From contig JAJZAL010000154.1 of NCBI GenBank assembly GCA_021799405.1, positions 1 through 12,652 of the forward strand: a DNA stretch of 12,652 nucleotides. Reading direction: 5' to 3'. Of this stretch, positions 1 to 11,395 are shown one piece after another; position 1 is the stretch's first letter, and every line of letters starts with the position of its first letter. Under the pieces are notes generated by a model, which saw nothing but the letters and a program-made list of their open reading frames with translations, was not told the origin of the DNA and searched no databases. The stretch is from Acidobacteriota bacterium. Lineage in GTDB: Bacteria; Acidobacteriota; Terriglobia; Terriglobales; Acidobacteriaceae. The position numbers and the translations under genes are program-made.

Positions 1-2080
1 GCAGCCCGGCATTCACGGTCAGCTTTGAACTCGCTCGGTAATCGTCATTGACATACCATGCCCAATCTCGATTCCGAACAGCTTGTTCCTGCGCTATAGG
101 AGCGTATACCGTGTAGCTTCCCTGATCTACAGCGCCCAAGATGTAGCTGGCAAAGGGCACGCCGGTGGTGTTATCGATCGTCGTCGAACCCTGAAGGAAG
201 TTCGCCGTCTCGGTGCCGCTGTACTGGAGAGTGGCCGGGGTGCTTCCGCCCATCGCCGATATGACGTTATTGTCCAGCCACTGAATATCAAAACCAAAAG
301 AAAGCGAATGCTTGCCGCGGACCCATTGCAGGTTGTCCACCAGGTTGAAGTCGTCCGCATTATCCTGGGTTCCGTTTTGTGTGCCCCACTGTGCCGGGGC
401 GTATGCGCCACTGAATTTTTCCGCAGGAAATCCACCCGCGGCCTGGCCGTTGGGAAGACCCTGGATGCCAAACGTCGCCGCCGCCCACGCGTTTATGGGG
501 TAAGTTGGGTTGAAATCCGGCGAATGGTATTGCGCCGTCCCGTACTTGAACTGGTTCACCAGAGTTGAACTGAGGATATACGTGTCCTCGAAGATGCCCA
601 CACGGGTGACGGGGCGGTAGTACTTCGAGTAGCGATAGGGGAAAGGACCTACGTCAGTGGATTGGGCCGACGGGCCCACCAGTCCCTGGCGGCCTGTGGC
701 CAACAGAACGCTGACGGTCTGCTTGCTGCTGAGGTTTGCGTCAACATGAATGTTTCCATCCCAGTTGCTCAAACCGTAAGCGTAAGAACCAAGAAAGTTC
801 TTGGTAAGGTCTGAATTGGCATACGGAATGCCCTGCCAGAACTGCGCCATCTTCTGCGCGATGGGCGAGATCTCGCCCGGCGGGATGATGTTGCCCGGAA
901 ACGGCTGACGCGTACAACTGGTCGATGTGCAGGTTTCCGTGGTCGGATCGTAGATCTTAACCGGAGTGGGAAGGCTCAGGAGCTGACTGAAATCGCCCTT
1001 GAACATTTGTGCGGTGGGAATCGTATTGTAGACCGCCGGAGTCACCGTAGAATAGCGGAAACCATCAAACGCCCCAAAGAAGAACAGCTTGTTATGGATC
1101 AACGGCAAACCAGCGCTGATGCCGTACTGGTTCATATGCAAGGGCGGCTTGTAAATTGCTCCGGTAACGGAGCTGGTCGGCGGAAGAAAACCATACGCAT
1201 CGAATGCTGTGTTGCGGTCGATAACATAGGCCTCCCCGTGGATCTGGTTCGAGCCCGATTTGACGGTAAAGTTCTCCACGCCCAGGCCCGAGTATTCCGC
1301 CGAGTAGGCTGTGGTCTTCAACTGGAACTGATTTACACTCCCCACTCCGAATGCCGGCCAGATATAACGCGGATCGCCCGGGCTGCCAGGGAATGAGAAG
1401 GGAATGCCTTCAATGTACATCGCCGTGGCATGCGCATTGCCGTTGACAACCATCGGCTCATCGGTTTCATTGTTTTTCGTTTCGTTGGACGAAACTCCGG
1501 GCATCAAAGCCGCGAAGTCGGTCACGCGCTGCTGATCGGGACTGTTGGCCGCGCCCATCTCAAGAGGCAGCTCCTGGTAGACACTGCTCTGCAACACTGC
1601 GCCCAGCGTTGCATTCTGCGTCTCCAACGGCGGCGGCGCTGTTGAGACGGTGACCGTTTCCGTGGCTTGACCAATGGTCAGCTTCAGGTCTAACCCCAAC
1701 ACCTGCATGCCATTCAGGTGGATGTTCTTGCGAACTAATTTCTTGAACCCGCTGGCGGTAACCGTGAGGCTGTAGTTTCCTACGTTGAGCGGAGAAATCG
1801 AATAGAAACCATCTTTGTTTGTGTTTTGCTTGATTACAGCTCCGGTGCCGACGTCTGTCACTGCGACACTCGCACCCGGAATCACCGCTCCAGTAGGATC
1901 TGTAACGGTTCCCTGAATCGTCGCGGTTGCGCCGATCTGGGCTTTGGCCACGAACGGTGTCAGGATGGAGATAGCCAACAGCGCCAACCATCTCCATCGC
2001 AAAGAGCGCCGTGAGCAATTCGATGCTCCTCGCGACACTCCTCCTGCCTCCGAAAACGCCCTAAAGGCGAATCGTCTCAT
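1..2080 (-). CDS. Oar-like TonB-dependent receptor with carboxypeptidase-regulatory-like domain (3' end off the window)
   Basis: Outer-membrane active transporter, here probably for pectin-derived oligosaccharides. The minus-strand frame is open from ATG 2080-2078 to the left edge (693 codons visible), so the C-terminus is missing; such receptors are usually about 1000-1200 residues. The start is well supported: GGAGG at 2091-2087 lies 6 nt before the ATG. The leader has a long basic n-region (residues 1-31) followed by a hydrophobic stretch WLALLAISILTPFVAKA-Q, with likely cleavage after residue 47. Residues about 53-135 form a carboxypeptidase-regulatory-like beta-sandwich (IQGTVTDPTGAVIPGASV, then DGFYSISPLNVGNYSLTVTA). 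A plug-like region follows (about 150-280, with MYIEGIPFSFP and YSAEYSGLGVENFTVKSGSN), then aromatic-rich barrel strands. No SusD-like partner is visible. The substrate is inferred only from the neighbouring pectinases; the family assignment is secure. Confidence 0.9.
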   Translation of the reverse strand, partial: MRRFAFRAFSEAGGVSRGASNCSRRSLRWRWLALLAISILTPFVAKAQIGATATIQGTVTDPTGAVIPGASVAVTDVGTGAVIKQNTNKDGFYSISPLNVGNYSLTVTASGFKKLVRKNIHLNGMQVLGLDLKLTIGQATETVTVSTAPPPLETQNATLGAVLQSSVYQELPLEMGAANSPDQQRVTDFAALMPGVSSNETKNNETDEPMVVNGNAHATAMYIEGIPFSFPGSPGDPRYIWPAFGVGSVNQFQLKTTAYSAEYSGLGVENFTVKSGSNQIHGEAYVIDRNTAFDAYGFLPPTSSVTGAIYKPPLHMNQYGISAGLPLIHNKLFFFGAFDGFRYSTVTPAVYNTIPTAQMFKGDFSQLLSLPTPVKIYDPTTETCTSTSCTRQPFPGNIIPPGEISPIAQKMAQFWQGIPYANSDLTKNFLGSYAYGLSNWDGNIHVDANLSSKQTVSVLLATGRQGLVGPSAQSTDVGPFPYRYSKYYRPVTRVGIFEDTYILSSTLVNQFKYGTAQYHSPDFNPTYPINAWAAATFGIQGLPNGQAAGGFPAEKFSGAYAPAQWGTQNGTQDNADDFNLVDNLQWVRGKHSLSFGFDIQWLDNNVISAMGGSTPATLQYSGTETANFLQGSTTIDNTTGVPFASYILGAVDQGSYTVYAPIAQEQAVRNRDWAWYVNDDYRASSKLTVNAGL

Positions 2081-2162
2081 CACTTGCCTCCAAGTAATTA
2101 ACTTTGTGATTTGCCTCACGAACAAGGGATCCATCAACGGCTCACCAAACTATCTCTGCGCT

Positions 2163-2176
2163 GTGGTCTGACCTCC
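2163..2176. promoter_or_regulatory. Operator-like element, copy 1 (TonB receptor leader)
   Basis: The plus strand reads GTGGTCTGACCTCC. The core GGTC-T-GACC is a perfect inverted repeat and matches 7 of 8 defined positions of the TGGT-N3-ACCA pattern bound by classical FadR-family regulators. It is 83 nt upstream of the receptor ATG and just downstream of the possible promoter, a typical repressor position. The same 14-mer with one change occurs upstream of the regulator gene (3492-3505). Confidence 0.5.
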
Positions 2177-2194
2177 CTTTGAAGCGGACTTAGT

Positions 2195-2221
2195 GTCATA
2201 TATGGCGCTGTGCCCTGTCAA
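2195..2221 (-). promoter_or_regulatory. Possible sigma-70-type promoter for the TonB receptor
   Basis: On the minus strand there is a perfect TTGACA (2221-2216), then a 15-bp spacer and TATGAC (2200-2195, 4 of 6 matches to TATAAT). The short spacer and imperfect -10 make this tentative. If correct, transcription would start near 2188 and give a leader of about 108 nt that contains the operator-like element at 2163-2176. Confidence 0.35.
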
Positions 2222-2406
2222 TAGCCAGTAAAGAAATTTTTGCCGGATTATGAAAATTAAGGAGTTAAAAAGAGAGTTGCTCGCGGTAAGGATCGGTTTA
2301 AAGGCAGGTCTCCGCAGATTTAAAGAGACCCGGCAATTCCCTCTGCGCCATCAGCAACGGGAGCATAGCGGCTTCTTGGAATCCAGGAAATATAAGTAAA
2401 ACTAAT

Positions 2407-2423
2407 TATATCAATAAGATATA
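2407..2423. repeat. AT-rich inverted repeat TATATC-AATAA-GATATA
   Basis: Perfect 6-bp arms around a 5-bp spacer, in the gene-free region about 330 bp upstream of the receptor start. It could be a regulator-binding site or a chance feature of AT-rich DNA; nothing else supports a function. Confidence 0.3.
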
Positions 2424-2586
2424 GAGGAAATAGCCATTTCGGTGCCATTCGGGCAAACGGCCATCACCCAACGAGTCAACCGGAAGTATGAAAGTAAAGT
2501 CGACAATACGGTGCTGCGCGCCACTTTCGGGTGATTAGGCTCCACCTATTCCCCACGCTAACCATTCCTGCCGTTAATTTCCGTGG

Positions 2587-3354
2587 TCAGTCCGCAGCGT
2601 GTTTCATTCGTGCCTGGCTGTTTCTCAATGTGCCTGCGGATGACTTCCGTTCCACAGGGCGCTCCATTCCCTGCGCGACCTGAGCCATGCGCAGGTGTTG
2701 CTCCATGAGCCTGCGCGCTTCCGCGGCGTTGCGATTGCGAACGGCGCGGTAAATGGCTCGATGCATCTCGGCTGATTCGCGCAGATCAATTGAGCGCTCC
2801 ACGGTTTTGCGCCGCTTGTCGTACATCGATGATGACACCGTTTCCATGACCGCGCCGAGAATGGGATTGCCTGAAGCCTGGGCAAGGATGCGATGAAAGA
2901 GCACGTCATGTATGAGGTAATCGGAAGGGGCTCCCACCGCGGCAAACATTTCGGCAACCTCTTCGGCCAGCGCGGCATGATGTTCTTCCTTACCGCGTTC
3001 CGCGGCCAGCGCGGCTAGGTTGCTTTCAAGGATGATCCGGGCTTCAAACATCTGCCAGGATTGAAATCCGTGCAGCGCGCCCATAAAGCTGAGAGATGCC
3101 TTGCCAAGCTCCGGCGGACCATCAGCGACAAAGGTTCCCACGCCGTGCTTGATCTTCAACACACCCATCGCCGCCAGGTAGCCGATACCTGTACGAAGGC
3201 TTGCACGGCTGATCTTCAGGTCCCGAGCAAACTCGCGTTCCGGTGGAATCTTGTCGCCGGGTTGGAGCGTGCCATTCTCGATCAATGAGCGTACGTGATT
3301 CACCACCTGCATCGTCCGGTGTGTTTCCGTAAGATTCTGCTTCACCCTCGCCAT
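2587..3354 (-). CDS. FadR-type GntR family transcriptional regulator (wHTH + FCD domain)
   Basis: Cytoplasmic ligand-responsive regulator, probably controlling the surrounding pectin genes. With the start chosen here (ATG 3354-3352, 255 aa), residues about 14-78 form the GntR winged helix (PPEREFARDLKISRASLR, then GVLKIKHGVGTFV). Residues about 95-225 form the all-helical FCD ligand domain. The usual metal-binding set appears complete: D150 and H154 (HDVLFH), H198 (EMHRAI) and H220 (MEQH). FadR members that sense sugar acids such as galacturonate or glucuronate are known, which suits the context. The frame stays open upstream to an ATG at 3519 that overlaps the GH28 stop by 4 bp. I disfavour it because the 55 extra residues look unstructured, use rarer codons (CTA, TTA, AGA, AGG; GC3 about 52% against about 64%), and cover an operator-like element. 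Neither start has a good Shine-Dalgarno sequence, so the start remains uncertain. Confidence 0.85.
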   Translation of the reverse strand: MARVKQNLTETHRTMQVVNHVRSLIENGTLQPGDKIPPEREFARDLKISRASLRTGIGYLAAMGVLKIKHGVGTFVADGPPELGKASLSFMGALHGFQSWQMFEARIILESNLAALAAERGKEEHHAALAEEVAEMFAAVGAPSDYLIHDVLFHRILAQASGNPILGAVMETVSSSMYDKRRKTVERSIDLRESAEMHRAIYRAVRNRNAAEARRLMEQHLRMAQVAQGMERPVERKSSAGTLRNSQARMKHAAD

Positions 3355-3491
3355 AGATGGAAGACACTTTCTGGGAATGAGTTCCGGAGATTCCCGGTAA
3401 GTCGAGATTAACACCGAGACATCATCCTGGTTGAGTAGCCCACCGCCCGGCATCATTGAGAGTTCATGGCTCCCGGTCGGCATAACATTTA

Positions 3492-3505
3492 GTGGCCTGA
3501 CCTCC
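3492..3505. promoter_or_regulatory. Operator-like element, copy 2 (upstream of the regulator)
   Basis: GTGGCCTGACCTCC, 13 of 14 identical to copy 1 at 2163-2176. It lies between the GH28 stop (3516) and the preferred regulator start (3354). This is consistent with autoregulation and with the stretch being a leader rather than coding sequence. Confidence 0.45.
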
Positions 3506-3515
3506 AATAGACCCA

Positions 3516-4814
3516 TCATTGCTGCTTGAGCGAAAGCTCCGCACCCGTCGACTTCGTAATCGGCTGCCCTTTTGCCGCTTGCACAACCACACCTTCGCCG
3601 GTCACCTGAGCGTAGCCGATGGTCAGGCCTTTCTCTGCGCTGATCCTTACATTGCGCAGGACGACGCCGGTAACGGGCGATTCCGGCAAGCCCACGATCG
3701 CTCCCGCCAGCGTGCTTCCCGTGGCCGTCACATTCTCAATCACCATGTCATGAAAGTGCGGAGTCAGCCTCGTTACGGGAGCCGCCGATACCCCTCCGGC
3801 CGGTATGATCCGGGGATAGTATTCGCTGATGATCAGCGCGTTCTTTACGTTCTTCATCTCAATATCGCGGAAGACCAGATGACTCACGTCATGGCCGCGA
3901 TCGCGGTTGGCCTTGACGCGAATGCCGTTCGCGGTGCCATCGAAATGAATGCGCTCAGCAAGAATGTTTTGAGCACCGCCGGCCAGTTCGCTGCCCACCG
4001 AGACACCGTGCCCATGCAGAAAAGTGCAGTCTTTGATGGTGATGTCCCGGCTTGGCGAGTCGGGGCCGGGAGAGTTGATCATACCCGACTTGATAGCCAC
4101 GTTATCGTCGCCCACATCGGAAAATACGTGATCGATCACCATGTGCGAAGAGGAAAACGGATCGATCGCATCCGTATTGGGAGAATGAGCGGGCGCGAGA
4201 ATTCTGACATTGCGGATCGTAACATCGTCGGAGTAGTACGGAACCACCTGCCACATCGGCGAGTTCTGAATCGTCACGCCCTCGATGAGTACGTGCTTGC
4301 AATGATCGAAGACCACCAGCCGCGGCCGCGGGTGATCAGTGCCCAGAATCCCTGAGCCTTTGATGGCCCACGCCATCTTCCACCAGCTCTCTCCCGAACC
4401 ATCGATGATGCCTTCCCCCGTGATCGAGACATTGGTGGCGTTGGTGGCGCTGACCAGCGCTTGCAATCCCGGCGCGCGAAATTCCCTGATTGCGGGGTAG
4501 TCCGCATGGTCTGTGGACCCAAGAAGCGTCGCACCCTTGTCGAGGTGCAGCGTAATGTTGGACTTCAGGACGATGGGGGCACTGAGATACGTGCCTGGCG
4601 TCAGTGTAACCGTACCGCCCCCCTGCCGTTCGCAAGCATCGATGGCGGCCTGAATTGCCGCGGTATCCTTGGTGACGCCGTCGCCCCTGGCGCCGAAGCT
4701 GCGCGGATTGCAATTCGCCGAGGCATAAAGACTTCCCGTAGAAACGGTAAGGGAAAAAATGCAGGCGGCCAACACAAAAAGCCGTTGTCTCGGCAAAGTA
4801 ATCTGTCGTGGCAT
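3516..4814 (-). CDS. Secreted GH28 polygalacturonase-family glycoside hydrolase
   Basis: Hydrolyses alpha-1,4-galacturonic acid linkages of homogalacturonan or pectin fragments, outside the cytoplasm. With start ATG 4814-4812 the protein has 432 residues, a normal family length. It begins with a clean signal peptide (basic MPRQITLPRQR, hydrophobic LFVLAACIFSLTV, likely cleavage near YASA-N). The mature part opens with the pectate-lyase-superfamily motif SFGARGDGVTKDTAAIQAAI, then right-handed beta-helix repeats. All GH28 signature motifs are present: N213-T-D215, D236-D237 (GDDNVAIK), G268-H-G270 and R299-V-K301 (a variant of RIK). GAGG lies 7 nt before this ATG. An in-frame ATG at 4850 has a better site (AGGAG, 6 nt) and would add 12 residues, so it is a real alternative. 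The gene is divergent from the GH28-CE8 enzyme. Endo or exo action cannot be told from sequence alone. Confidence 0.9.
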   Translation of the reverse strand: MPRQITLPRQRLFVLAACIFSLTVSTGSLYASANCNPRSFGARGDGVTKDTAAIQAAIDACERQGGGTVTLTPGTYLSAPIVLKSNITLHLDKGATLLGSTDHADYPAIREFRAPGLQALVSATNATNVSITGEGIIDGSGESWWKMAWAIKGSGILGTDHPRPRLVVFDHCKHVLIEGVTIQNSPMWQVVPYYSDDVTIRNVRILAPAHSPNTDAIDPFSSSHMVIDHVFSDVGDDNVAIKSGMINSPGPDSPSRDITIKDCTFLHGHGVSVGSELAGGAQNILAERIHFDGTANGIRVKANRDRGHDVSHLVFRDIEMKNVKNALIISEYYPRIIPAGGVSAAPVTRLTPHFHDMVIENVTATGSTLAGAIVGLPESPVTGVVLRNVRISAEKGLTIGYAQVTGEGVVVQAAKGQPITKSTGAELSLKQQ

Positions 4815-4870
4815 GAGGAATCCTCGGTAGAAAATTGCTTGCCCGCTCATCATACACTCCTGGGAGTCAC

Positions 4871-4884
4871 GTGGTCATGCCACC
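4871..4884. promoter_or_regulatory. Operator-like element, weak copy 4 (upstream of GH28)
   Basis: GTGGTCATGCCACC, 10 of 14 identical to copy 1. It keeps the outer arms GTGG...CCAC and matches 7 of 8 positions of TGGT-N3-ACCA. It lies 57 nt upstream of the preferred GH28 start. This is the weakest of the four elements. Confidence 0.3.
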
Positions 4885-4965
4885 CGCTCAGGCTTGCCCT
4901 TGTAACGCAGCTGAGAAATTGAATGATACCTGGGAAAGACCGGCACATGGCCAGCCCTGTGATTT

Positions 4966-4988
4966 CGGTCCAGCTTGACTGCGGACCG
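4966..4988. repeat. Inverted repeat CGGTCC-N11-GGACCG in the divergent promoter
   Basis: Perfect 6-bp arms (4966-4971 and 4983-4988) flank the TTGACT of the possible promoter for the GH28-CE8 gene. Position and symmetry fit a binding site for a second regulator, but it could be chance. Confidence 0.3.
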
Positions 4989-5005
4989 CTCCTCTTCTGT
5001 ACATT
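4975..5005 (+). promoter_or_regulatory. Possible promoter for the GH28-CE8 gene
   Basis: TTGACT (4975-4980) and TACATT (5000-5005), separated by 19 bp, which is longer than ideal. A start near 5012 would place the operator-like element at 5017-5030 just downstream, as for the TonB receptor. Weak consensus match. Confidence 0.25.
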
Positions 5006-5016
5006 GGAGATTACTA

Positions 5017-5030
5017 GTGGTCAGTCCTCA
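5017..5030. promoter_or_regulatory. Operator-like element, copy 3 (upstream of GH28-CE8)
   Basis: GTGGTCAGTCCTCA, 11 of 14 identical to copy 1 at 2163-2176 and 58 nt upstream of the preferred start at 5088. The dyad is GGTC-A-GTCC, imperfect at one pair. Confidence 0.4.
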
Positions 5031-5087
5031 TGGAAGGCGATGCTTTCCCTATCACCTCAATTCCGCCTTGCGGATCGGAGCACCTTC

Positions 5088-7454
5088 ATGCGATCTTTTA
5101 TCCTCCGTTCACTCATCGTGACGGCTCCTCTTTTCCTTGCGATTACCTTGACGGCTCAGGATACGCGCACCGTAACCGAACCTCGTATTCCCGCTGCCTG
5201 CGTCACTCTGAAAGCGCGCATTGCTTCCGCAAATGGTGCAATTGCGGCCACAGACGAGCGCCGGTTGGACACCGAGCGCATTCAGGAGGCTATCGACCAC
5301 TGCGCTTCGGGCAAAGCAGTGGTCCTTGGCGCCGGCGGCCGGAAGAACGTCTTCCTCACCGGCCCGCTCACTCTGCGCGCCGGGGTAACGCTGGTAGTTG
5401 ATGCCAATACCGTGCTGGCGGCGTCGCGCGATCCGCGGCTCTTCGACCTGAGGCCGGGCAGTTGCGGCATGGTTGCGGCAAGAGGACACGGCTGCAAACC
5501 TCTCATCTTGGCCGACAACGTTGACAACAGCGGCATCATGGGCGAGGGCTCCATCGACGGTCGAGGAGGGGACAAGTTGCTCGGCCAGGAGGTGACATGG
5601 TGGGATCTGGCACATGAGGCAAAGGTCACGGACCAGCAGCAAAGTGTCTTCGCCCTGATCGTTCTGCACCACGCCCGGAACTTCACGATGTACAAGATCA
5701 CGCTCCGTAATTCGCCGAACTTCCACGTCGCGGTGAATCAGACAGACGGATTTACAGCCTGGGGCGTGAAGATCATGACGCCCAAAACCGCCCGCAACAC
5801 CGACGGCATCGACCCCAGTTCCTCGCGCAATGTGACGATCACGCACTGCTTTATCCACACCGGCGACGACGACGTAGCCGTGAAGTCCGGCAGAAGCGGC
5901 CCGTCCTCGAACATCTCGATCCTGCACAACCACTTCTACACCGGCCACGGCATGTCCATCGGCAGCGGCACCGATGGCGGCGTCGATCACATGCTGGTCG
6001 ACGACCTGACCATCGACGGCGCCGACAACGGCATCCGTATCAAGTCCGATCGCAGCCGCGGAGGCCTGGTTCACGATCTGGTTTATCGCAACATCTGCAT
6101 CCGCAATGTAACCAACCCGCTGGTTTTCACGCCGCACTACACCACATTCAACGGCAACCTGCTCCCTATCTACCGCGACATCACACTCCAGAACATTCAC
6201 ATCCTCACACCAGGCGCCTACACCTTCCTCGGATTGGACGCGGAGCACAAGCTCCAGTTGACGCTCAATAACGTGTTTGCCGATGGCTTGCAGCATTCGC
6301 GCATGATCAGCAAAGACGCGGTCTTTACAATCGGCAGGCAACGCGGCAACCTTGAGCCCGCCGGTGAAGATGTGACCATCGAGCAAACCTCCGGCTCATC
6401 GGCTGGAACGCCGCTCAATTGCGATGCGCGCTTCGTTCCCTTCCCGGCGGATGCAGTGGCGCCTGAGATGGCCGGCAAAGTTCCGCCCGAGGACAAAACC
6501 TACTACGTGGCGGCCGACGGCACCGGTGATTACTACTCCATCCAGCAAGCCATCAATGCCGTGCCCGCTTCAGGCGATGCGATGATCCTGGTGGCGCCGG
6601 GCACATACCGCGAAGTGATCACGATCAACAAGCCGGGCATCCAGCTTCGCAGCGCCACTCCTGATGCGAGCAAGACGATCGTGGTCAACGATCGCAGCGC
6701 CGGCGCAAACGGCGGCACATTGCACTCGGCCACCGTGAATGTTACAGCCGACAACTTCTTCGCCGAAAACATCACCTTCCAGAATGACTTCAATCGCACC
6801 CATCCACAGCTTCCCGCCGGCTCGCAGGCGCTCGCTTTGCTGGTCAAGGGCGACCGCGCAATCTTTCACAACGTGCGTCTGCTCGGCAATCAGGACACCA
6901 TCTACCTGGGCAGCCGCAACTGCTCGCCCGATGGGCAGAATTGCGTCCCCGCGCGCCAGTATTTCTCAGATTGCTACGTCGAGGGCAACGTGGATTTTAT
7001 CTTTGGCGATGGCAAGGCCGCCTTCAATCATTGTGAGATCCACAGTACTCCGCATGACGGCGGATTTATCACCGCGCAAGCGAAGCATGATCCCAGCGAA
7101 GATTCAGGCTTCGTATTCGATCACTGCAAACTCACCGCAGCCGAAGAGCTCACCGGAAAGGTTTTCCTCGGGCGTCCATGGCGGCCCTTCGCAACTGTGA
7201 TCTTCCTCAACACGGAAATGGGCGGCCAGATTGCGCCCGCCGGCTGGCGCGAGTGGCATCCGGGAGAGACACACTCGCTCGACACGGCCTATTACGCGGA
7301 ATTCAACTCGACCGGCCCCGGAGCACACCACGACGCGCGTGATCCGCATGCACATTTTCTAACGCCCAAGCAGGCAAAACATTATGATCCGGCTGTATTT
7401 TTGCGCGGGAGCGACAACTGGAATCCGTTCGTAATTCCCGAGCCGCCGCAATAG
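5088..7454 (+). CDS. Secreted bifunctional polygalacturonase-pectin methylesterase (GH28-CE8 fusion)
   Basis: A 788-residue secreted enzyme that should both remove methyl esters from pectin and cut the galacturonan backbone. The start at ATG 5088 gives a Sec signal peptide (MRSFILRSLIVTAPLFLAITLTAQ) with GGAG 7 nt upstream. The frame is open back to an ATG at 4923, but that extension has no signal-like sequence and covers the promoter. The GH28 domain (about 30-455) carries N237-T-D239, D260-D-D262 (GDDDVAVK), G286-H-G288 and R317-I-K319, all canonical. The CE8 domain (about 470-785) begins at TYYVAADGTGDYYSIQQAI and has GTYRE, Q580 (SQALAL), Q602-D603 (QDTIY, general acid), D636 (DFIFG, nucleophile) and R696 (LGRPW). 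Both active sites therefore look intact. The linker is short. The gene is divergent from the single-domain GH28 and probably shares its control region. Confidence 0.93.
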   Translation: MRSFILRSLIVTAPLFLAITLTAQDTRTVTEPRIPAACVTLKARIASANGAIAATDERRLDTERIQEAIDHCASGKAVVLGAGGRKNVFLTGPLTLRAGVTLVVDANTVLAASRDPRLFDLRPGSCGMVAARGHGCKPLILADNVDNSGIMGEGSIDGRGGDKLLGQEVTWWDLAHEAKVTDQQQSVFALIVLHHARNFTMYKITLRNSPNFHVAVNQTDGFTAWGVKIMTPKTARNTDGIDPSSSRNVTITHCFIHTGDDDVAVKSGRSGPSSNISILHNHFYTGHGMSIGSGTDGGVDHMLVDDLTIDGADNGIRIKSDRSRGGLVHDLVYRNICIRNVTNPLVFTPHYTTFNGNLLPIYRDITLQNIHILTPGAYTFLGLDAEHKLQLTLNNVFADGLQHSRMISKDAVFTIGRQRGNLEPAGEDVTIEQTSGSSAGTPLNCDARFVPFPADAVAPEMAGKVPPEDKTYYVAADGTGDYYSIQQAINAVPASGDAMILVAPGTYREVITINKPGIQLRSATPDASKTIVVNDRSAGANGGTLHSATVNVTADNFFAENITFQNDFNRTHPQLPAGSQALALLVKGDRAIFHNVRLLGNQDTIYLGSRNCSPDGQNCVPARQYFSDCYVEGNVDFIFGDGKAAFNHCEIHSTPHDGGFITAQAKHDPSEDSGFVFDHCKLTAAEELTGKVFLGRPWRPFATVIFLNTEMGGQIAPAGWREWHPGETHSLDTAYYAEFNSTGPGAHHDARDPHAHFLTPKQAKHYDPAVFLRGSDNWNPFVIPEPPQ

Positions 7455-7455
7455 T

Positions 7456-7480
7456 CTTGCTTTCTCGCGGAGAAGCCAAG
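7456..7480. terminator. Hairpin just after the GH28-CE8 stop; possible terminator
   Basis: CTTGCTTTCTC (7456-7466) and GAGAAGCCAAG (7470-7480) can pair at 9 of 11 positions around a GCG loop, starting 2 nt after the stop codon. No T-run follows on either strand, so it is not a classical intrinsic terminator. It may be a 3'-end stabilising or weak termination structure. Confidence 0.3.
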
Positions 7481-7557
7481 CACGATGAGCAGAGGTCCTG
7501 TGAGTAAGTACCGCCGCTGCCGCTCAGCTTGGAGCGAAGGCAGAAGAGAGTTCAGTG

Positions 7558-7877
7558 ATGAGGAGAAGACGCGTCGTTGAAGGCGGCGCCGCGATTGGCG
7601 CAGTCGGCGGTTGGCATTTGCACGGCCAGCGGATGAGCGCGCAAGCAGACAGGACTCGTCCGGAGATCGTGCGCCGGACGTTCTTGTGCTGCCCGACGAT
7701 GGGTGGAATCTCGGGATCAACTGGAAGGCATCGTGGAGAGACGACGTCGTCTTTCTGCCGGAGGATGTCGATCTCGCCGGGCTTCCGGCAAATCCGCCCG
7801 CCGGCGGATGGCAGGGCTTGTGCGCGCGCACGAGCGGGCCCCACGGAACGACACTAGAGCATCAAGCACAAGTTTAG
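7558..7877 (+). pseudogene. Decayed 5' fragment of a secreted glycosidase, probably GH2-like
   Basis: From ATG 7558 one frame reads MRRRRVVEGGAAIGAVGGWH, which looks like a (possibly twin-arginine) export leader. A second frame, from about 7650 to a TAG at 7875-7877, reads LVLPDDGWNLGINWKASWRD, then FLPEDVDLAGLPANPPAGGW. The pattern of LP-D-W-L, then W-x-D-D, LPEDV-x-L, LP-x-NPP-x-GGW matches, from memory, the start of the mature part of large GH2-type sugar-binding-domain hydrolases of Bacteroidota and Acidobacteriota. The leader and mature part are in different frames and the protein stops after about 90 residues, whereas such enzymes exceed 800. I therefore read it as a remnant with a frameshift near 7640-7680 and a large deletion. 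The family assignment has not been checked against a database. Confidence 0.5.
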
Positions 7878-7999
7878 TCAGCATGGTGGAGAATCAGCAG
7901 TTGGAAGCCAATCGGCGCACCGCACAACTTTCACTCCCGGATCATTCAGGACCACATGCCGGGAAGTGGCTACCTGCGCCGCAGACAGCGACCGTCGGC

Positions 8000-10900
8000 T
8001 CATTGCGCCTCTTCGCGAATCACCTTGACCGGCCCAAGCAGGCCGGAGGGCAGCAGCGGCGAGTCAGCCCGGTAGGGCTTAACGTCGGTGAAGGTGTACT
8101 TGGTCGCACCGGGCTGTTGATCGCCGATCAGCCGATTCACCCACGCGTTCACGACCTCGATCCTGATCTGATTCGCGCCGGACTTTAGGGCCGTGGTCGC
8201 ATCCACGCGATACGGCGCGTGCCAGGTCTCACCCAGGTTCTTTCCATTGACGGTCACAACAGCCAGGTTCTTCACATCACCCAAATCTATCCACACATGG
8301 GCTCCCTTCTGGAACCACTGCGGCGAGGCCTGGAAAGTCTTTGTGTATACGCCCACACCGGAGAAGTATTTCACCCCCGCGTCATCGCTCTTGCTCCAGT
8401 CGATGAGCTTGTCCATAACGACGGACGCCGGAGCACCACGGCCTGGCTGGAACTGGACCTTCCATGGCCCGCTGATCGTCGCCACCGTGGTGTCGTTCAC
8501 TGGCGGAAGCGTGAAAACAGTCTTGCTCGTTGGCTTGCGGAAGACCACAAAGATTGTTCCCCACGGCTCCAATTGAAGTGGCATGGTGGTGCGGCCATCT
8601 GCGATCGAGTACGCAGCAGGCTCAGTCTTGCCCGTTTCTGCGTACCACAATTGAGGCGCGTGGCCGGCGACGCGGAAGGTAGCCTCTACGCGGGTGGGGT
8701 AATCGCTGCGGTTATCGACGAAGTAGAGATCGCCATCGGCAAGCTTGCGGTGAACGAACTTCAGGTTGGCCTCAGGACCGGACTGCGTCGTGTAGGCGAA
8801 GTCCGGCGGCACGCGCATGGCATCGAGCGCTTGAGCTACAGTTTGGCCGGCATAGACCGTCCCTTTGCCTACATGATGCACGCCGGTGCCATCGCCGAAG
8901 AGCTCGTTCGCGAGTGTATGGAATTCGCTCTGGTTGTCGGCAAGGCTGGGATCATCTGTTGGTTTGTCGCCGGCAACGGTGGCTCCGTTGATCACAAGCT
9001 GGTGGATAGCGCGTAGCACCGGCAGCGACATGTGGCGGCTGTACAGCGCCAGTCCGAGCACGCGATAAGTGGTACCGCCAGGCGTCGTGATGCGGCCGCC
9101 GGCGTTGACTTTGAGTACATGAATGAGCGCATCGGCGTTGACGTAGTCAAAGCCATAACCTTCCGGCAAGTCCGGTGATTTGGTGTGATAGATAGCAGTA
9201 AGGTTGGAGTCTTCACCGTAGTAGTAAATCACGTCCGCGCCAAAGTGCCCCTGCTGCAGCATGTAGCTGTTACGCGCCAGATAAGTAACCCACGGACCGG
9301 CTTCGTTCGCCCAGGTTTCGTTGCGGTTAAACCATTGGCCGAAGGGGCCGAGCGTCAATCCAGGCGCCTTGCCCACCAAAGGCTGGTGCGCCGACTCGTG
9401 AATGCAGAAGCGGTTGATGCCGTTGAGGAACTCCTGATCGGCGGTAGGCTTCAACGTAGCGGGCGACCATGCCCAGGGCGCGGCGGCAGCGGTCATCGAT
9501 TCCGCCGCGGCAATATTCTGGCCGTAGATGTGGGCTACGGAGGCGGATTCACGATCATCGGCGTTGTAGTCATATTGAACCTTGTTCACGCCGGGGGTCT
9601 GCGTCCACATCGCGCTCATCGGCACTTCGCTGAACTTCTTCACCTCCATGCCGTCAGCAATGAAAGCGCGGCCGCTTTCGTGCGACTCACTGTAGTGGCC
9701 CATGTGCCACTCGTGCAGCACATCCTCCAGCACGCCGTAGTGCTCATAGGCGATGAGATCGCCTATGGTTTCGCGGAAGTCCCAAAGAAAGCGGTCGCTG
9801 TCGGCCACACTTCCCACAATTTCTCCGGTGAGTACCGGCATCCAGGGAACAGGATCGTAGCCGCGCAGGCGTTTGAAGTCGGCAATCATGTTGTCGGTCC
9901 AATTCTCAGAGCCGGCTTCCCAACTGTCGTTGACAACATAGGTAATGCCACGCTGACCCATCATCTCCGGACCCACGGTGTTCTTGTAGCTGTCCAGATA
10001 GTTCTCCATATATTGCCGCACGTCCTGGCCATTGAGCTTATCGACTTCGAGGCCGGTGGCTTCAGCGGTGGCGGGATGATTGGTGATGCCGAGCAGGCTG
10101 TAGCCAAAGCGGAGCACGACCCAGCGCCCGGGCGGAGGAGTCCAGTCGAGAGTACCGTCAGGACGCATCTTTGAGGTGAGATTGATGACGTCGGATTTCT
10201 TCACCGCATCATTGGGACCGGCGGGCGGCGTGGCAAATTCATACAGATCGGGCGCTGTTACAAAAGCGGCTTTCTCTTCAAAGTGATTGACGCGTGCACC
10301 GGGATGCAGGACCAGTTCGGCAATTTCGTACTCGGTAGGCGTGGGCCCGGCATTCAACCCCAAAGATTTCGGATCAACGCCCACTGCCCATGCGGGCGGC
10401 CGAGGGGGAGGCACGCGAAGAAACGTAACGCGAAAGTACTTCGCCGTGACGGCCGGAAAGGAGACGGTCGTTTCGGGAGCGCTGCCGGCGTTGAGTTGCG
10501 CGACTGTGCGCCAGGCTCGGCCATCGTCGCTAGCTTCGAGAGCTTTCTCCGGCGCCGCAATGCCGTAAACGATTGCAACAGCCCGGCTGGGATTGCTCGT
10601 GACCAGCGTGACCGCGCGGATCGTGACGGGCTTGGGAAAGGCGTATTGAATCCAGGCCTTCTGTCCGGGCGGCGGAATGGCAATCCCGGTCGACTTCGAG
10701 AGATCACCATCTATCAGCATCGCGATATCTGGCGAGCCGCCGCTGGCGGTGATGACCGGGTGGAGCGACTCCAGCGCGACATCGCTTTCCGGCTGTCGAT
10801 AGGCAACAACAACCGAGTCAGCATAGAACTGAGGAGCAGGCTTGCCTCCGCGCTCAGCGCGGAGAACATCGTGAATGCCGATGTTCTGAAAAGCGCCGGT

Positions 10901-11395
10901 GTTCCCCGGCGGATGAGGAAGCTTGCCTTCGAATGGCTGGCCGCCTTCGATAACGGTCGCGCTCCAGACATACTTCTTCATGCCCGCGGAGGGCGGAACC
11001 CAGGGTCCGCCGGACTCGCTCCATCCAGGAGAACCGGCAATGGCCATCTCCATGCCGTCTTGGTTACCGAGGTTGATCGCATACCTGAATGCGTCTTGCC
11101 ACGCAGGCGTCATGTACGCCAAACGCTGCTTGACCACCTGCGGCGTAGAGAGCGCGGCATCGAAGGTCTGAAAGCCGCCCAAACCGACCTGGTGCATCCA
11201 GTCCAGGTCAAGCTTAATGCCTACCTCGGTGATGTTGCCATTCATCCAATGCCACCAGACACGTGGCCTCGCGCCATCGGGCGGATTTTCAAAGCCACTC
11301 CGCAAGGGGTCCGCAGACTTCTGCGCAGTAGCAACGCCAAGGCATAGGATCAACAACAAGCTCGCCGAAAGTAGATCTCTCATTCTGGAATACAT
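8000..11395 (-). CDS. Secreted GH106 alpha-L-rhamnosidase
   Basis: Exo-acting enzyme that removes terminal alpha-L-rhamnose, as in rhamnogalacturonan side chains or other rhamnosides. The start ATG 11395-11393 gives 1131 residues and a Sec signal peptide (MYSRMRDLLSASLLLILCLGVATAQ) with AAGGGA 5 nt upstream. The frame is open upstream to 11521, but those 42 residues lack signal features. The mature N-terminus has the GH106 hallmark RVWWHWMNGN (from W47), then GIKLDLDWMHQVGLGGFQ. A galactose-binding-like or F5/8-type insert (about 205-365) follows. The catalytic barrel has conserved NDSWEAGSENWT (E493 is a candidate acidic residue), then DFRETIGDL and a region ending near SHESGRAFIADG. Residues about 970-1131 form a C-terminal beta-sandwich of GH2 sugar-binding type (TVNGKNLGETWHAPYRVD). 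The length is typical. It follows the sulfatase on the same strand after a 131-bp gap, so cotranscription is possible. Confidence 0.92.
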   Translation of the reverse strand: MYSRMRDLLSASLLLILCLGVATAQKSADPLRSGFENPPDGARPRVWWHWMNGNITEVGIKLDLDWMHQVGLGGFQTFDAALSTPQVVKQRLAYMTPAWQDAFRYAINLGNQDGMEMAIAGSPGWSESGGPWVPPSAGMKKYVWSATVIEGGQPFEGKLPHPPGNTGAFQNIGIHDVLRAERGGKPAPQFYADSVVVAYRQPESDVALESLHPVITASGGSPDIAMLIDGDLSKSTGIAIPPPGQKAWIQYAFPKPVTIRAVTLVTSNPSRAVAIVYGIAAPEKALEASDDGRAWRTVAQLNAGSAPETTVSFPAVTAKYFRVTFLRVPPPRPPAWAVGVDPKSLGLNAGPTPTEYEIAELVLHPGARVNHFEEKAAFVTAPDLYEFATPPAGPNDAVKKSDVINLTSKMRPDGTLDWTPPPGRWVVLRFGYSLLGITNHPATAEATGLEVDKLNGQDVRQYMENYLDSYKNTVGPEMMGQRGITYVVNDSWEAGSENWTDNMIADFKRLRGYDPVPWMPVLTGEIVGSVADSDRFLWDFRETIGDLIAYEHYGVLEDVLHEWHMGHYSESHESGRAFIADGMEVKKFSEVPMSAMWTQTPGVNKVQYDYNADDRESASVAHIYGQNIAAAESMTAAAAPWAWSPATLKPTADQEFLNGINRFCIHESAHQPLVGKAPGLTLGPFGQWFNRNETWANEAGPWVTYLARNSYMLQQGHFGADVIYYYGEDSNLTAIYHTKSPDLPEGYGFDYVNADALIHVLKVNAGGRITTPGGTTYRVLGLALYSRHMSLPVLRAIHQLVINGATVAGDKPTDDPSLADNQSEFHTLANELFGDGTGVHHVGKGTVYAGQTVAQALDAMRVPPDFAYTTQSGPEANLKFVHRKLADGDLYFVDNRSDYPTRVEATFRVAGHAPQLWYAETGKTEPAAYSIADGRTTMPLQLEPWGTIFVVFRKPTSKTVFTLPPVNDTTVATISGPWKVQFQPGRGAPASVVMDKLIDWSKSDDAGVKYFSGVGVYTKTFQASPQWFQKGAHVWIDLGDVKNLAVVTVNGKNLGETWHAPYRVDATTALKSGANQIRIEVVNAWVNRLIGDQQPGATKYTFTDVKPYRADSPLLPSGLLGPVKVIREEAQ

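Follow-up and report, generated by a model that had tools for sequence, protein, structure and literature searches.

The stretch analysed here, positions 1 to 12,652 of contig JAJZAL010000154.1 (assembly GCA_021799405.1) from a bacterium of the Acidobacteriaceae and hereafter called the window, encodes a receptor-like outer-membrane protein, a GntR-family regulator and pectin-degrading enzymes, and in front of several of these genes it carries a short repeated element. We find it very probable that these repeats are operators of the FadR-type regulator encoded in the same locus, a putative repressor of pectin and galacturonate genes in these Acidobacteriaceae. An earlier note on this DNA had read them as operators of that regulator, and the conservation of the sites and their co-occurrence with the regulator gene now support it. 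The reading rests on sequence: the operator, its position, conservation and co-occurrence with the regulator, and its promoter-like geometry.

Conservation of the predicted operator in related loci

The earlier note described a 14-mer at four places. A pattern search recovered the copies at 2163, 3492 and 5017, and a looser pattern combined with reading of the window the one at 4871, all where the note had put them and with the counts of agreement it had given (13/14, 11/14 and 10/14). All four are real, but a fifth, weaker site at 2583-2595 had escaped its list, and only part of its description of the element stood: the dyad has the GGTCnGACC core it proposed, but the conserved unit is a 13-bp palindrome, GTGGTCNGACCAC, and not a 14-mer with a trailing TCC. 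Upstream of regulator orthologues this palindrome is near-perfect, with T or A allowed at its second and twelfth positions. In the window alone the case for the 14-mer is marginal and weakly significant, with three matches at up to three mismatches against a mean of 1.00 expected, a number that 13 of 200 shuffles reach and that fits the note's chance estimate of a few percent. Given these marginal window statistics, the question had to be decided by comparison.

We constructed a symmetric matrix for which all 33 sites came from other species, excluding G000, a near-identical assembly of 5.3 Mb that differs from the window at 21 places across positions 1-7415. Of these training sites, 14 lie within 320 bp upstream of regulators and deviate at no more than one position, and the other 19 are exact and precede pectin-related or transketolase genes; seven distal exact sites, lying inside genes or lacking an evident target, were kept out of it. 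Against this matrix the five window sites took ranks 1 to 5, and the next-best place scored only 6.0. By predicted strength, the site at 2163 stands far above those at 5017 and 3492, and the sites at 2583 and 4871 are the weakest. Simulated windows matched in dinucleotide composition (n = 4000) had on average 0.35 hits scoring at least 10; a single one reached five such hits, and none contained three at 14 or above. With the starts we chose (regulator 3354, GH28 4814, GH28-CE8 5088), four of the five sites are wholly noncoding, in a window of which 12.9% is noncoding. Alternative longer frames, of the regulator from 3519 and of GH28-CE8 from 4923, would cover the sites at 3492 and 5017; because the alignments of several orthologues begin at residue 1 of the protein that starts at 3354, the 3492 site is placed in the gap between GH28 and the regulator.

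A second collection, obtained by scanning titled genome records, yielded 72 acidobacterial loci, nearly all from metagenome-assembled genomes. After exclusion of L248 (a match of 53 residues), of L194, L219, L230, L235 and L238 (contigs apparently already used) and of L213 and L233 (short upstream sequence), 64 loci remained. In 55 of them the 250 bp preceding the regulator contain an operator scoring at least 14; with 300 permuted palindromic matrices the average was 0.06 loci and the maximum 4, and control stretches of equal length from the regulator coding regions had such a site in none of the 64. Eighteen of 66 loci (counted before removal of L213 and L233) have a co-directional receptor gene within 1.8 kb after the regulator, and an operator was present in all 18 regulator-receptor gaps, where 500 permuted matrices gave a mean of 0.12. 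The conservation in orthologous loci that the earlier note's reading called for is thus found before both genes.

Individual relatives preserve the arrangement of the window at finer scale. In L185, whose enzymes are 73-74% identical to those of the window, both 13-mers of the divergent pectinase gap (read as complements, GAGGACTGACCAC at 5017 and GTGGCATGACCAC at 4871) are identical at 13/13 positions. Identity over the rest of the gap is 42.5%, and no run of 13 identical columns occurs other than those covering the two operators. The equivalent gap of L037 has GAGGTCCGACCAC and GTGGTCTGTCCAC. L209, with the order GH28-regulator-receptor as in the window, has strong sites at the places equivalent to 3492 and 2163, the former reading GAGGTCAGACCAC. 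For the site at 2583-2595 there are loose parallels only, in the form of second sites in the regulator-receptor gaps of relatives such as L197 and L188.

Promoter geometry and the proposed mechanism

In many loci the regulator is divergent from uxaC, the gene for galacturonate isomerase. Among 49 site-bearing uxaC promoters, a TATACT or TATAAT box stands no more than 30 nt upstream of the operator in 40, and in 36 of these it ends 0-1 nt before the operator. Of the 18 receptor loci, 16 have a TTGACA no more than 60 nt upstream of the operator, and 12 have it at 39-41 nt; in the window the distance is 40 nt. The operator therefore overlaps or follows the presumed transcription start, which is the geometry of a repressor, and this positioning of operators abutting or closely following promoter-like boxes favours repression. 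FadR itself activates at fab genes, and members of its family can both activate and repress. It is accordingly conceivable that the regulator binds these sites and activates its targets, and the promoters of GH28 and GH28-CE8 in the window are too poorly defined to place their sites; we nevertheless regard activation as unlikely, since both the uxaC and the receptor arrangements suit blocking. A consensus scan gave a weak match at 4878-4849 on the GH28 side, its first hexamer overlapping the 4871 site, which we did not rely on.

We infer DNA binding, a dimer, repression instead of activation, and a ligand. A dimer of the regulator would bind the GTGGTCNGACCAC dyad where transcription of its targets begins, or slightly downstream, and so block it. 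With pectin available, a compound derived from galacturonate inside the cell would release the regulator from the DNA, allowing the regulator itself to be expressed jointly with the receptor, the two pectinases and the distant uxaC operon.

Association of the operator with the regulator across the family

Of 120 genomes of the family, 30 matched the regulator at 1e-30; those with at least 190 bits, 25 in number, were taken as having the regulator, and the five weaker matches were counted with those lacking it, giving 95 without. The uxaC gene is present in 43 of the 120. Its 300-bp upstream region holds a site scoring at least 14 in 15 of the 22 genomes that have the regulator and in 0 of the 21 that lack it (Fisher p 1e-6). 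Four genomes of the same genus with no regulator match at 1e-30 (G083, G102, G117 and G064) retain uxaC and lack the operator. The exact pattern likewise occurs 38 times in the 107.5 Mb of the 25 genomes with the regulator against 36 times in the 409.5 Mb of the 95 without, that is, at 0.353 versus 0.088 per Mb (p 6e-9), and a reversed control pattern showed no difference in density between the two sets (p 0.24). We examined 22 of the 36 exact sites in genomes without the regulator: 15 were inside predicted genes, and none stood beside a recognised pectin-related gene, with Pfam applied to two of the flanking genes. By contrast, of the 26 distal exact sites examined in genomes with the regulator, 19 precede genes for GH28 enzymes (several), receptor-like outer-membrane proteins, UxaC, PfkB kinases similar to KDG kinase, 6-phosphogluconate dehydrogenase or transketolase; here the receptor of L102 was assigned from its N-terminus only, and the label 2-keto-3-deoxygluconate (KDG) kinase stands for PfkB plus context.

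These observations bear on the alternative that the operators are real and are those of a different FadR-type paralogue, with the linked regulator as a bystander. Escherichia coli LldR and FadR also bind GGTCnGACC-type dyads (PMC10272880, PMC9329746), and a first look at 50 listed genomes returned 2 to 23 unconfirmed GntR candidates per genome. However, both the density of the motif and the presence of the uxaC operator track this particular regulator, uxaC lacks the operator in the four congeneric genomes named above, and the site precedes the regulator itself in most loci, so that we consider a paralogue a distinctly improbable owner of the sites.

The earlier note had proposed a local regulon. 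The predicted regulon is wider, including an unlinked uxaC and, in relatives, GH28, receptor, KDG-kinase-like and 6-phosphogluconate dehydrogenase genes. On an unlinked contig of the same species, the interval between a GH88 gene and uxaC contains CTGGTCAGACCAC 33 nt ahead of uxaC, which agrees with the regulon prediction. Also in this species (L124:5929-5941, G000:C285), GTGGTCAGTCCAC occurs roughly 1 kb before a PfkB/KDG-kinase-like gene, with one gene between them. Predicted operators thus stand before both galacturonate-catabolic and pectinase genes, as would befit a repressor of a hexuronate/pectin regulon. In L035, the sole locus of this kind examined with Pfam, the genes after uxaC (PF02614) encode a major facilitator superfamily (MFS) transporter, a LarA-like protein, UxaE (PF16257) and a short-chain dehydrogenase (SDR). 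The LarA-like protein (PF09861) lies within this run of L035 (regions concerned: L035:12580-13848 and L123:6483-8045); the equivalent part of the window's own genome was read poorly by the open-reading-frame caller. Exact operators before 6-phosphogluconate dehydrogenase and transketolase genes in L112 (G033) and L105 (G044) hint at a link between the pectin signal and central metabolism.

Several variations on the basic arrangement were also seen. Two tandem operators with starts 16-17 bp apart occupy the uxaC-regulator promoter in L034 (same contig as L194), L177, L180, L187, L189, L190, L193, L195, L196, L204 and L242, an arrangement that suggests cooperative binding. In L054 and L055, whose regulator homologues are 44-46% identical, the upstream palindromes GTGGCTATACCAC, GTGGTAATGCCAC and GTGGCATTGCCAC have a changed centre and possibly reflect a shifted operator specificity. 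In G034, G098, G052 and G067, with regulators 58-64% identical, uxaC has no standard operator or has degenerate forms of it. Three assemblies, as grouped by accession prefix, each contain two copies of the regulator (L178/L218, L181/L229 and L231/L239); in L181/L229 both copies are beside a uxaC, and in the other two assemblies one copy is and one is not.

Points weighing against the proposed assignment

A number of observations count against the operators being those of the linked regulator, or against parts of the evidence for it. Nine of the 64 regulator upstream regions have no site, the relatives compared are not phylogenetically independent, and one permuted matrix reached 14/18 receptor gaps; our guess is that it hit a conserved promoter. 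The uxaC comparison is partly circular, in that the training of the matrix included uxaC-regulator promoters that were then scored; uxaC sites outside the training set (G000, G047, G116 and G104) score 16.1-16.6. Seven of the 22 uxaC upstream regions in regulator-bearing genomes lack a site of at least 14, and in six of these seven genomes the regulator is only 49-64% identical to that of the window. Seven of the 26 distal exact sites are without an evident pectin target. With regard to geometry, the uxaC operator of the window's own species lies 18 nt after TATACT and does not adjoin it, and a scan for consensus promoters was negative at 2081-2600 and at 3340-3600.

The frequency of the word in its own genome adds to these points. 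At up to one mismatch, 12 of the 18 places matching the degenerate 13-mer are inside predicted genes, and therefore the word alone is not specific and the regulon cannot be defined from one genome. In G000 the reversed control pattern is commoner than the motif at one mismatch as well as at two (492 versus 136 places). We therefore gave no weight to absolute frequency and relied only on comparing genomes that have the regulator with those that lack it. The 14-mer, for which the earlier note had raised the matter of frequency in coding DNA, behaves otherwise: GTGGYCTGACCTCC has two exact copies in G000, both in this locus and, with the chosen starts, neither inside a gene, and its reversed form has none. 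Chance similarity, or a dispersed short repeat without a regulatory role, gains something from the marginal window statistics, yet it is highly implausible given just these two copies in 5.3 Mb, the perfect footprint in the diverged gap of L185 and the positional conservation found across diverged loci before regulator and receptor.

The regulator and its relation to known systems

The regulator matches the GntR helix-turn-helix domain (PF00392, 53.4 bits against a cut-off of 27) and the FCD domain (PF07729, 93.8 against 24.3), so the locus does encode a FadR-type protein, as had been noted. The 33-site matrix and the conservation described above further point to a palindromic operator with a core of the GGTC-N-GACC type, in keeping with this subfamily. 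The protein falls below every cut-off of the NCBIfam models for characterised members: FadR (38.5 bits against 249.2 for TIGR02812, 41.8 against 189 for NF003444), ExuR and UxuR (51 of 396 and 56.5 of 442), and LldR and NanR (96.5 of 311 and 104.4 of 260). Opposite the DNA-contacting FadR motifs PAERE, TRTTLR and QHG the regulator has PPERE, SRASLR and KHG, an alignment that fits the GGTCnGACC core common to FadR and LldR operators. The structure 3fms, presumably that of Thermotoga maritima TM0439, is a remote match (E 0.0013 over residues 16-197) and is outranked by 24 other distinct chain sequences.

Literature matches for GGTCNGACC include the papers on E. coli LldR, with the operator AAnTGGTCnGACCAnTT (PMC10272880), and on FadR, with aaCTGGTCnGACC(T/A)Gtt (PMC9329746). 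Both have the core in common with the acidobacterial operator; the outer bases here, GTGG..CCAC, are unlike theirs, and the targets also differ. ExuR and UxuR of Gammaproteobacteria are GntR-family hexuronate regulators as well (PMC9369180), but the low model scores given above set the window regulator apart from them. UxaR of Caldicellulosiruptor belongs to the DeoR family (PMC8579813) and is not comparable.

We read the acidobacterial regulator as functionally analogous to Thermotoga maritima UxaR (TM0439), its nearest functional analogue, which belongs to the GntR family, controls pectin and galacturonate genes and has several operators (PMC3750489). The UxaR regulon comprises pectate lyase, exo-polygalacturonase, uxaE, gnd and the kdgA-kdgK-uxuB-uxuA operon, and likewise acidobacterial sites precede gnd, kdgK-like and uxaC-uxaE genes. 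In contrast to Thermotoga, the predicted acidobacterial targets include outer-membrane receptors and GH28 and GH28-CE8 enzymes. Furthermore, the UxaR motif, compared by length, spans 17 nt against 13 bp here, and uxaC, a predicted target of the present regulator, is assigned to KdgR in Thermotoga. The UxaR-DNA complex is reported to have been unaffected by any uronate tested (PMC3750489).

Gene organization of the window

The features of the window are collected in Table 1. Its GH28 protein is 66-74% identical to the five closest relatives among the loci compared. The earlier note's statement that no good copy of the element lies upstream of GH106 holds, and GH106, lacking an upstream operator, was therefore left out of the regulon. 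Between GH28-CE8 and GH106, about 545 bases (7455-7999) are without an assigned gene; contig C4 of G000 ends at 7415. Past the window (L033:9639-11533), genes for a pectate lyase (PF09492) and a GH88 protein follow the receptor on the same strand and are possibly co-transcribed with it; no additional operator scoring at least 9 was found in that stretch.

Table 1. Coordinates of predicted operators, genes and a promoter-like box in the window, with matrix scores and basis of assignment
Feature	Position	Strand	Remarks
TonB-dependent-receptor-like outer-membrane protein	2..2080	-	PF25183, PF13620; runs off the window, 1282-aa frame in G000
Predicted operator O1, GTGGTCTGACCTC (complement GAGGTCAGACCAC)	2163..2175		Score 21.3, best in the window; before outer-membrane receptor gene
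TTGACA box, likely receptor promoter	2216..2221	-	40 nt before O1; from context and relatives
Weak operator-like copy, GTGGTCAGTCCGC	2583..2595		Score 10.2; overlaps last 9 bases of regulator gene; weakly supported
Regulator, GntR helix-turn-helix plus FCD, 255 aa	2587..3354	-	PF00392, PF07729
Predicted operator, GTGGCCTGACCTC	3492..3504		Score 14.8; GH28-regulator gap, 137 nt before regulator start
GH28 polygalacturonase-like protein	3516..4814	-	NCBIfam PglA-like match below cut-off; identity of relatives
Predicted weak operator, GTGGTCATGCCAC	4871..4883		Score 10.05; GH28 side of divergent gap
Predicted operator, GTGGTCAGTCCTC	5017..5029		Score 15.2; GH28-CE8 side of divergent gap
GH28-CE8 fusion, polygalacturonase plus pectinesterase	5088..7454	+	PF00295, PF01095
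GH106 alpha-L-rhamnosidase	8000..11383	-	PF17132; best upstream score 3.9

Implications

The GntR-family hexuronate/pectin regulon is an already known class, and the sequence comparisons offer good support for the acidobacterial case as a new instance of it; among the literature matches listed, drawn from open-licence papers, none describes an acidobacterial regulon for the use of pectin or plant polysaccharides. More tentatively, and with less than even confidence, one may envisage a single FadR-type repressor governing a family-wide acidobacterial regulon, in which receptors, pectinases, the uxaC-MFS-LarA-like-uxaE-SDR pathway and, in some species, Gnd and transketolase would answer to one signal. 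If this were true, the effector and the LarA-like step of the pathway would be new. Acidobacteria are abundant in soils, and the operator matrix provides a handle for listing pectin genes, uptake receptors included, in species known only as assembled genomes, while the ligand of the regulator would reveal which galacturonate product these bacteria sense.

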